Shown here in pieces: positions 1 through 24,376 of a stretch of DNA of 24,376 nt. Every line of letters begins with the position of its first letter. Position 1 is the stretch's first letter. The DNA is from a virus. A model generated the notes under the pieces. That model was given only the letters and a program-made list of their open reading frames with translations. It was not told the DNA's origin and did no database searches. A program made the translations under genes and the position numbers. The stretch is from the IMG/VR virus record IMGVR_UViG_3300024475_000251, positions 1 to 24,376 of that record; one strand, 5' to 3'.

Positions 1-237
1 GAAACTATTGGAAGTGCAGAACGCAGTTGTGATGTTGATATGATGCGTGATACATTCCACAGTATTACAGATGGTGCTTACAGTGAGCTACTATTCAAGT
101 TGTTTGGTAAAGAACGTGTACAAGCAGAACTAGAAGAATTTTTACAGCATGACTTCTTCCAAAGAGTAGGCGGAGGTATTGGTTTAACAAGAATGATAGC
201 GGCACTAGACAAGCAAGAACTTGCACTAGCAGCCTAA
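1..237 (+). CDS. Class II aminoacyl-tRNA synthetase-like protein, C-terminal part (5' cut by window)
   Basis: The frame is open from base 1 and ends in TAA, so only the last 78 residues are visible. Near the start is ETIGSAER, which resembles the ATP-site strand of AsnRS/AspRS (E-[IV]-x-G-[SG]-x-x-R). Near the end is GGGIGLTRMI, a clear class II motif 3 (GxGxGxxR). Only about ten residues follow motif 3. That is shorter than in bacterial AsnRS and closer to asparagine synthetase AsnA, which shares the fold and has GGGIGQSR. The protein could therefore charge tRNA with asparagine or aspartate, or make asparagine from aspartate and ammonia. The GUU-anticodon tRNA that starts 8 nt downstream on the same strand favours a link with asparagine. 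The class II fold is well supported; the exact substrate is inference. Confidence 0.75.
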   Translation, partial: ETIGSAERSCDVDMMRDTFHSITDGAYSELLFKLFGKERVQAELEEFLQHDFFQRVGGGIGLTRMIAALDKQELALAA

Positions 238-245
238 TCAACCAG

Positions 246-349
246 TTTGGGGTGACGAAATGGTAGACGTGGGCCGCTGTTTACGGTCTGTTTAGATATG
301 TGTCGCAATATATTTAAGCGTGGAGGTTCGAATCCTCCCCCCAAAGCCA
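246..349 (+). tRNA. tRNA with GUU (Asn) anticodon and oversized variable arm
   Basis: A full cloverleaf can be drawn. The acceptor stem is TTTGGGG (246-252) with CCCCAAA (339-345), discriminator G346 and an encoded CCA (347-349). The D-arm is ACG/CGT (255-257, 268-270) with a GG-containing loop. The anticodon stem is GGCCG/CGGTC (272-276, 284-288) around loop CTGTTTA, giving anticodon GTT at 279-281 with U33 present. The T-arm is GGAGG-TTCGAAT-CCTCC (322-338). Between 289 and 321 lies a 33-nt variable region. It folds into an 8-bp hairpin (292-299 with 310-317), extendable to about 11 bp with wobbles. The D-arm and long variable arm look like a leucine tRNA, but the anticodon reads asparagine codons. 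Position 37 is U, where a purine is normal. It may decode AAY codons, be misread by automatic callers as Leu, or have a non-decoding role. Confidence 0.85.
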
Positions 350-22623: not shown

Positions 22624-23355
22624 ATGTCAACTATCGAGAACCCTGGGTTGCACTTTGCAACTCTGGCTAAAATAGCCTATATGACTGAAAAAGAAAGTAA
22701 GCCAATTGCACATACAATGGGTTACACAAAGACTAAACTTATTGATCATAAAGGTGCAGAGTGCTTGTTCCTTGAAAATAGTGAACGTATCGTGCTTGCA
22801 TTTAGAGGCACAGAGCCAAAAGAATTTAGTGATATCAAAGCAGATTTAAAAGCATGGAAGCGTCCTAGTGAAACTGAAGGTATGGTACATGCTGGCTTTT
22901 ATGATTATCTAGAACGCATCTGGGATACAGTTGAAAACCATATTAACTATGGCAAACGTGAACAAAAAGAACTTTACATTTGTGGACATAGTTTAGGGGG
23001 TGCGATGGCGGCGCTGGCCAGTAGTAGGCTTAATGACAGAGTTGTTGCTTGTTATACTTACGGACAACCTCGTGTGGGAGGCAGTGACTGGTGTGCAAAG
23101 CAAACATACGAACACCACAGATATGTAAACAACAATGACATTGTGCCTCGTGTACCATTTGCTATTATGGGCTTCCGTCACAGAGGCGAACTACACTACA
23201 TCAACTACTATGGTTACATTCGTAAGATGACACCGTGGCAGATTATCAAAGATGGATGGCGTGGTCGTATGAGAGCATGGAGTAAACTAGAGTTCTTTGA
23301 TGGTGCAAGAGATCACAGCATGGATTTATACGAAGCAAAAATTGCTAAGAATTAA
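22624..23355 (+). CDS. Class 3 lipase-like alpha/beta hydrolase
   Basis: The start is placed at ATG 22624, with GAGGAGAG as ribosome site; the open frame begins slightly earlier but lacks one. The 243-residue protein has the class 3 lipase order: FRGTEPKEF (60-68), nucleophile elbow GHSLGG with S123, D172 in NNDIVPRVP and H231 in DHSMDLY. Between them, YGQPRVG (146-152) is typical of fungal-type lipases. No signal peptide is visible, so it would act inside the cell or be released at lysis. It would hydrolyse acylglycerol or phospholipid esters. It is the only plus-strand enzyme in the right half, with its own promoter. Confidence 0.9.
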   Translation: MSTIENPGLHFATLAKIAYMTEKESKPIAHTMGYTKTKLIDHKGAECLFLENSERIVLAFRGTEPKEFSDIKADLKAWKRPSETEGMVHAGFYDYLERIWDTVENHINYGKREQKELYICGHSLGGAMAALASSRLNDRVVACYTYGQPRVGGSDWCAKQTYEHHRYVNNNDIVPRVPFAIMGFRHRGELHYINYYGYIRKMTPWQIIKDGWRGRMRAWSKLEFFDGARDHSMDLYEAKIAKN

Positions 23356-24376
23356 TAAGGACGATAAGCGTCCAAGTCAGGAATATAATCTTTAAGTTTT
23401 ATATTCCTGGCTGAATCCATAATATCATTCCATTTAAAAAACTTTTCTACTTTTTCAGGCTCAGGAGTATATGTTTCATAATGTGACAACATACCATCAA
23501 TACCTGATTTACAATCTTTACCATCACTATAATATAATTTGGTTTCTTTTGTACGGCGTAAACTTTCTTTAACTTCTTCAATCATTGGACTTATAAATGC
23601 ACTGTGTACATCTACATAATTGTACTGAAGATAAAGAAGTTCCTGTGGAAAGTTTTTACTTGCAAATTCAAAAAATTCATGAGTACGATGTATGCCCCAC
23701 ACAGTAGGTACATGATTCCAAGTGAACTTATGTCCTTTAGATTTTATTTTTTCACAATTTTTAATAATATTGTCCCAACTACTGCGCCATCTAATATAGT
23801 CGTTTACAATTCCAAAAGCATCCACACTTACACTAAAATGCAATTGAGTAAAATGATCTCCCAACTCCCAAAAAGCATCACTAATAAAGTTTGCATTAGT
23901 ATTAATAGTAAGTGAAAAATCTGTGTTACCAACATCTATACAATTACGCATAAAACTGTAAGTTTCTTTCATTACTGTTGGTTCACCGCCAGTCAAATAA
24001 ACAGTATGTTTGGGTGTTAAACTTGGTATGTTGATAGTATTAATAATATCACTATATTTGTAACTGTCTTTCCAAACTTGGTAATCATTGTACAATTCTG
24101 GATTCTGATTAAATTCTCTTTTCAGCAAATGGCTAAATTGAGGCTTGCACATGCGGCACATCAAATTACACTTATTACTGCTGCGTATTTCATAATAGTA
24201 TGGATTGTCAATTTTATCTAAATCACTAATTGACTTAATTCCTAATTCTGCAATATAATCCAGACTATCATGAACTCTATAACTATCCATTCCCTTATCT
24301 TCATAGTCGTAACAATTACTGCAGGTTTCAGGTATACGTTTACCTTTCAACATTTTCTGTCTAAGATCAACATATC
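23352..24376 (-). CDS. Radical SAM protein (twitch-type), 5' end cut by window
   Basis: The last 333 residues run from an internal ATG at 24353; the frame is open further upstream (YVDLRQK), so the true start lies outside the window. Cysteines C62, C66 and C69 form CNLMCRMC, the CxxxCxxC that binds the [4Fe-4S] cluster and SAM. YLTGGEPTVM is the GGE motif that contacts the SAM amino group. Before the cluster site, CSNCYDYED followed by GMDSYR is typical of twitch-domain radical SAM proteins common in marine phages. Substrate unknown; the twitch type often acts on small peptides or nucleosides. It is convergent with the lipase gene, with a 4-nt overlap. Confidence 0.88.
   Translation of the reverse strand, partial: YVDLRQKMLKGKRIPETCSNCYDYEDKGMDSYRVHDSLDYIAELGIKSISDLDKIDNPYYYEIRSSNKCNLMCRMCKPQFSHLLKREFNQNPELYNDYQVWKDSYKYSDIINTINIPSLTPKHTVYLTGGEPTVMKETYSFMRNCIDVGNTDFSLTINTNANFISDAFWELGDHFTQLHFSVSVDAFGIVNDYIRWRSSWDNIIKNCEKIKSKGHKFTWNHVPTVWGIHRTHEFFEFASKNFPQELLYLQYNYVDVHSAFISPMIEEVKESLRRTKETKLYYSDGKDCKSGIDGMLSHYETYTPEPEKVEKFFKWNDIMDSARNIKLKDYIPDLDAYRPY

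Follow-up and report, generated by a model that had tools for sequence, protein, structure and literature searches.

The window examined here is a whole IMG/VR record of 24,376 bases. It opens inside a synthetase gene, the start of which lies beyond the contig edge, and the gene is followed directly by a tRNA. The features are arranged as follows:

1..237, + strand: 3′ end of a class II AsnRS-like, core-only synthetase gene; reading frame open at the 5′ end, stop codon TAA at 235-237
238..245, + strand: 8-nt spacer from stop codon to tRNA, by direct reading
246..349, + strand: tRNA gene, 104 nt, class II body, anticodon GUU, G73, CCA encoded
246..252, + strand: 5′ strand (UUUGGGG) of the 7-bp acceptor stem, U1:A72; partner strand at 339-345
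255..270, + strand: leucine-type D arm, ACGAAAUGGUAGACGU, placed by alignment; the pattern is that of true tRNA-Leu genes of related loci
272..288, + strand: anticodon stem-loop with a 5-bp stem
277..283, + strand: anticodon loop CUGUUUA (DNA CTGTTTA) with U33, G34 U35 U36, and U37; GTT at 279-281, U37 at 282
289..321, + strand: variable region, 33 nt, with a predicted 12-bp hairpin pairing 290-301 with 308-319
322..338, + strand: T arm, GGAGG UUCGAAU CCUCC
346..349, + strand: discriminator G73 (346) and encoded CCA

The original prediction, made from sequence alone, had claimed a synthetase-like gene ending 8 nt before a 104-nt GUU tRNA on the same strand, which is confirmed by direct reading, and a leucine-type D arm, a 33-nt variable region, and U37, which also hold. 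The variable-arm hairpin, put there at 8-11 bp, is present with a predicted length of 12 bp. The D stem comprises 3 bp with a Leu-type loop. The predicted fold of the complete tRNA, which includes the 12-bp hairpin, has an energy of −35.9 kcal/mol (z −2.66), and 2 of 200 shuffles fold as stably. Neither ARAGORN nor Rfam alone calls the window copy (246-349); it scores 90.3 bits against a model built from 43 members, itself among them, and its sister copies are recognized by Rfam RF00005. Elsewhere, positions 420-1511 and 23352-24353 of this phage contig hold a Rieske-type ring-hydroxylase alpha-subunit homolog and a radical SAM protein.

Only 78 C-terminal residues of the synthetase are encoded in the window, with the class II motif 3 (GGGIGLTRM) at the end. 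A protein search with this fragment recovers 80 close relatives in viral contigs, among them the full-length protein L001, which matches the 78 residues with 100% identity; the cyanophage P-SSM7 protein, used as a further query, yields at least 600 relatives. Full-length members are 263-290 aa long and start with MTQLINPQKFT or a similar sequence. PF00152 (tRNA-synt_2, the class II D/K/N catalytic domain) matches along these proteins and no other Pfam domain is found; the N-terminal OB-fold anticodon-binding domain, a feature of AsnRS, is missing. They match PHROG 29758, whose function is unknown. The curated AsnRS, AspRS, and AsnA models all match the phage protein weakly, with 33.9 bits against a cut-off of 342.6 for TIGR00457 (AsnRS) and 21.9 bits against 389 for PRK06462 (archaeal-type AsnA), neither of which is met. 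The motif 2 and motif 3 arginines, R88 and R265, are invariant in 36 phage and cellular sequences. The enzyme gene is under purifying selection, with dN/dS values of 0.07-0.17.

An AlphaFold2 model of the enzyme (pLDDT 91.4) finds its best structural match in an AsnRS with bound Asn-adenylate (8h53; Z 28.0, rmsd 2.2 Å over 249 aligned residues), followed by AspRS (Z 26.4), EpmA (Z 23.9), and archaeal AsnA (3reu, Z 23.6; 3p8t, Z 23.5). Foldseek agrees, and a profile search of the PDB also places AsnRS at the top (E 6e-12) and archaeal AsnA far lower (E 8e-4). The nearest fold of the modeled enzyme is that of AsnRS; of the two possibilities in the initial label "AsnRS/AsnA-like", AsnRS is the closer by profile and by structure. 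The substrate loop QTGQMWLE aligns with QSSQLYLE of AsnRS; the corresponding AspRS loop is QSPQLYKQ. Leu occupies the position of the AspRS Lys, and the AsnRS-type Glu is present. These loop positions we take to be the amino-acid-specificity residues, from what is generally known of class IIb synthetases. For a residue comparison with archaeal AsnA proper, the group searched yielded no protein that passed the cut-off. The phage enzyme thus shares with AsnRS (TIGR00457) the catalytic fold, class II motifs, and substrate loop, but it lacks the N-terminal domain, falls far below the curated score, and forms a separate clade. With archaeal asparagine synthetase A (AS-AR, 3P8T/3REU) it shares a stand-alone core (~290 aa) without an anticodon domain, but the profile and structural matches are weaker, and archaeal asparagine synthetase A is not known to be paired with a tRNA gene.

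The tRNA follows the synthetase gene in 151 of the 155 viral loci that were found by protein and have at least 200 nt of downstream sequence. Because ARAGORN often mis-sets the anticodon on relatives (Asp atc, Glu ctc, Gly acc), tRNA stems after the gene were parsed by script in 154 loci, MAG contigs included; every one of the 149 parsed viral loci except one (136 nt) has the tRNA 4-12 nt past the stop codon. For the converse, viral contigs were scanned with a DNA pattern that covers the D and anticodon arms and uses no protein information. It returned at least 112 viral tRNAs with 150 nt or more of upstream sequence, and every one of these (112/112) has the synthetase gene within 1200 nt upstream; their contigs overlap in part with the protein-found set. 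Linkage of gene and tRNA is thereby shown, and conserved pairing, which had been set beforehand as a test, holds both ways. Among 121 loci, 64 distinct pairs of flanking gene families surround the cassette. In P-SSM7, gp23 lies upstream and a tail gene downstream; in P-SSM2, a lipase lies downstream. Gene and tRNA probably form a single cassette that is passed on, and transferred among genomic sites, as a unit.

Four of the 155 related viral loci lack the tRNA, which counts against the pair reading; L036 and L065, and L052 and L059, are inferred to have lost it. The huge phages LR756501 and LR756508 encode the protein, but searches of them gave no GUU pattern match and no tRNA following the gene. 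In L171 (4859-4890), only tRNA acceptor ends are left downstream of the gene (TCCGGGG TC CCCCGGA GCCA), as if the tRNA body had been deleted or, possibly, collapsed in assembly. In several relatives, the region upstream of the synthetase gene also holds a permuted tmRNA of the alphaproteobacterial type (RF01849), encoded by the phage and oriented divergently from that gene (L006 3967-4330, L009 3770-4321, L015 1154-1455, L029 1060-1390, L042 3919-4321, minus strand), with tags read by ARAGORN such as ANDNQQPEMALAA. This tmRNA suggests an alphaproteobacterial host and a translation-gene cluster.

Anticodon GUU, G73, and U1:A72 are each present in 91 of 91 distinct tRNAs. The acceptor branch is 7/5, and the variable region spans 11-38 nt with a paired arm; the short variable loop of bacterial tRNA-Asn (class I body) is not met. 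The D arm is common to true tRNA-Leu genes in the same loci (e.g. GUGAAAUGGUAGACAC in L008), and Ser and Tyr genes differ. CCA is encoded in 41 of the 91 and not in the cyanophage-type group. In the 43-member alignment, 99.8% of stem cells are paired and 21 of 24 pairs have changed on both sides; the four pairs of the variable arm reach 98.7% pairing, and each of them shows two-sided changes. This covariation is real and well above slid controls, so variable-arm covariation, the other test set in advance, is passed as well. The anticodon loop reads CUGUUUA in 48 tRNAs, UUGUUUC in 23, CUGUUUC in 8, CUGUUAA in 6, CCGUUUA in 5, and UUGUUUA in 1. U37 is the rule in most members; together with C33 in five tRNAs, it is odd for a tRNA reading A-starting codons and counts against Asn decoding. 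The CCGUUUA loop, in which C33 replaces the near-universal U33, occurs in L090, L122, L123, L128, and L157.

Two further peculiarities of the tRNA are noted. GCAA recurs at the tip of the long variable arm in the CCA-encoding group (window 305-308), within variable surrounding sequences, and is absent from short-armed members. An extra T-stem base (GCAUGG versus CCUGC) is common to L064 (5278-5377) and L076 (2485-2584); these copies may be degenerate or a true variant.

Homologs of the enzyme with 50-66% identity and the same motifs occur in genome contigs assigned to Patescibacteria, Bacteroidota, Pasteurella atlantica, Midichloriaceae, and others, although some MAG contigs with homologs are evidently phage. 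Genome contigs L172-L179, L181-L186, and L188-L247 hold this core-only AsnRS-like family, of unknown function, without a tRNA. Overall, the genomes with cellular homologs yield no more pattern matches to a Leu-bodied GUU tRNA than the reversed-pattern control does, and the sequences fetched around the cellular genes contain no GUU tRNA by ARAGORN, L180 excepted. L180 is a Chloroflexi MAG contig, with neighbors that appear phage-like by eye. In the tree, the tRNA-bearing marine phages form one clade (100/98; 17 rows with the tRNA and 3 without), L180 is a separate tRNA-bearing lineage, and the phage family stands apart from the seven synthetase rows included (100/100). It seems that the core-only enzyme of AsnRS type predates the pair and that the tRNA was added in phages, a few of which have since lost it. 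AsnRS or GatB is present in most of the checked genomes with a cellular homolog. In Bandiella (G014), neither is present, and the homolog was considered as its sole AsnRS; this idea was rejected because the assembly also lacks GlnRS and relatives have GatB, so that it is probably incomplete.

The cellular homologs without a tRNA imply that the core enzyme can do something alone, which counts against the pair reading. In one alternative, the tRNA is merely a neighbor inherited alongside an enzyme of another kind, either an archaeal AsnA-type asparagine synthetase or a protein aminoacylase resembling EpmA. The domain plan is the same, a core without an anticodon domain, and both folds are among the structural matches given above; bacterial homologs lack such a tRNA and, in most genomes checked, coexist with AsnRS or GatB. 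Against this stand the near-perfect two-way linkage at 4-12 nt in 64 contexts and the position of AsnRS as the closest match by profile and structure. We consider this alternative unlikely.

Identity elements in the tRNA bear on the amino acid. In bacteria, Leu identity needs A73, Ser identity uses C72, and G73 with a GUU anticodon transfers Asn identity (PMC9976931). In all 91 cases, the phage tRNA conforms to the Asn set and to neither the Leu nor the Ser set. Its partner enzyme is also AsnRS-like, and Asn is the simplest charge. Charging by host LeuRS alone had been named as an outcome that would refute the pair; it is disfavored by the G73 found in every tRNA, where A73 is needed. A broader alternative is that host LeuRS or SerRS charges the tRNA, so that AAY codons are misread or the tRNA acts as a regulator or toxin, as for nematode nev-tRNAs. 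The Leu-like D arm and long variable arm are in its favor, nematode class II tRNAs with foreign anticodons do receive Leu (PMC4300185), and an A73 to G73 change can turn Leu identity into Ser (PMC9976931). However, A73 (Leu) and C72 (Ser) are found in 0 of 91 tRNAs, and a dedicated AsnRS-like gene accompanies the tRNA in 112 of 112 cases, which leaves this explanation very improbable.

A two-step route is also conceivable, in which the tRNA first receives Asp from the phage enzyme and the resulting Asp-tRNA is converted to Asn-tRNA by GatCAB, the amidotransferase of the host. GatCAB selects tRNA-Asn by U1:A72 (PMC9976931, PMC4206432), the very pair that is invariant here, but U1:A72 is also merely typical of bacterial tRNA-Asn. 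Furthermore, the substrate loop is AsnRS-like rather than AspRS-like, with Leu replacing the Lys of QSPQLYK. The route is unlikely, though it cannot be excluded.

The preferred reading, which we regard as likely, is a dedicated phage pair of AsnRS core and tRNA that supplies Asn-tRNA for AAY codons. A phage synthetase and tRNA that recognize each other had been proposed at the outset as the simplest interpretation, and the present results support it; that the tRNA is charged, with which amino acid, what it decodes, and how the phage benefits are all inferred, without biochemistry. From its fold and residues, the stand-alone class IIb core would convert Asn and ATP to Asn-AMP; the linkage and acceptor features suggest that Asn would then be transferred onto the adjacent phage tRNA, which, to judge from GUU, would decode AAU and AAC as Asn. 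With no anticodon domain in the enzyme and a variable arm of anywhere from 11 to 38 nt in the tRNA, recognition would most likely rest on the acceptor end, with its U1:A72 and G73, and on the atypical Leu-like elbow. If so, GUU is kept for decoding. On a Leu-type body, the change from A73 to G73 should rule out LeuRS, and SerRS should be disfavored by A72. Recoding of AAY was weakly tested and not seen: the catalytic Asn of the large RNR subunit in the window (SNLCCEI) is coded AAT, so AAY appears still to read Asn in this phage. The window uses AAC 176 times and AAT 186 times in 6860 codons.

Feeding of Asn-tRNA to a non-ribosomal reaction, that is, amino-acid transfer to a protein or small molecule, had been raised as another possibility, and nothing was found in support beyond one marginal hint. 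The window protein at 6552-7034 matches PF04377 (arginyl-tRNA-protein transferase C-terminal fold) and could be an aminoacyl-tRNA user, but the match is weak (25.8 against a cut-off of 25) and there are no co-occurrence data with the pair. Moreover, the invariant GUU would be needless for a non-decoding tRNA unless the enzyme reads the anticodon. We regard this reading as very unlikely.

The advantage to the phage can only be conjectured. Phage tRNAs with altered anticodon loops have been proposed to resist host anticodon nucleases (PMC10264068). With its odd body and U37, the tRNA could still provide the phage with Asn-tRNA at times when host tRNA-Asn is in short supply or cleaved by such nucleases; U37 and the Leu-like body would fit nuclease evasion, a possibility for which there are no cleavage data. 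Independence from host Asn-tRNA formation is another potential benefit. In a bolder version, the pair is a natural, mobile, host-independent viral system in which a minimal AsnRS core charges only its Leu-bodied U37 tRNA, keeping Asn codons readable after host defenses destroy or starve tRNA-Asn. We lean slightly against this version. The orthogonality claimed in the original prediction remains an inference, because G73 with GUU is the bacterial Asn identity set, and host AsnRS might charge the phage tRNA too.

If charging holds, many bacterial viruses of the ocean carry a widespread synthetase/tRNA pair dedicated to each other, in which AsnRS is cut down to its catalytic core and the tRNA is rebuilt on a leucine scaffold, giving a private viral supply of one amino acid. 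The question of why phages carry tRNAs would become directly testable for that amino acid. PHROG 29758 would gain a function, with a hint for the bacterial homologs, and the pair would be a candidate orthogonal system of ~270 aa that may not read the anticodon, a property sought for genetic-code engineering.

Among arrangements already described, the CysRS*/selC* tRNA-Cys pairs come closest (Mukai et al. 2017, reviewed in PMC7609411): there, a truncated synthetase without an anticodon-binding domain shares a locus with an odd tRNA with a long variable arm that it has evolved to charge. Those pairs combine a class I CysRS with an 8/4 tRNA-Sec-like body and U73 in anaerobic bacteria, whereas the marine phage pair has a class II AsnRS-like core, a 7/5 Leu-like body, G73, and GUU. 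Nematode nev-tRNAs (PMC4300185) and bacterial allo-tRNAs (PMC7609411) likewise have long variable arms and anticodons foreign to their body type, but they are charged by cellular LeuRS or SerRS and lack a synthetase of their own; the acceptor branch of allo-tRNAs is 8/4 or 9/3. No description of the phage synthetase/tRNA pair was found in the literature searched, and papers beyond that set could exist.

The same gene and tRNA are present in sequenced cyanophages, where T4-GC 194, tabulated in 2010 as "tRNA ligase", occurs with tRNA-Asn in P-SSM2, P-SSM5, and P-SSM7 (PMC3037559); the tRNA partner, its body, and the linkage are not discussed in the relevant sections of that work, and GenBank lists the gene only as "tRNA ligase". 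In the P-SSM2 record (AY939844.2), GenBank puts tRNA-Asn at 164094-164179, ~2 kb downstream and inside a gene. The tRNA-family model places it at 162083-162168, directly after the "tRNA ligase" gene, and the GenBank position looks like a coordinate slip.
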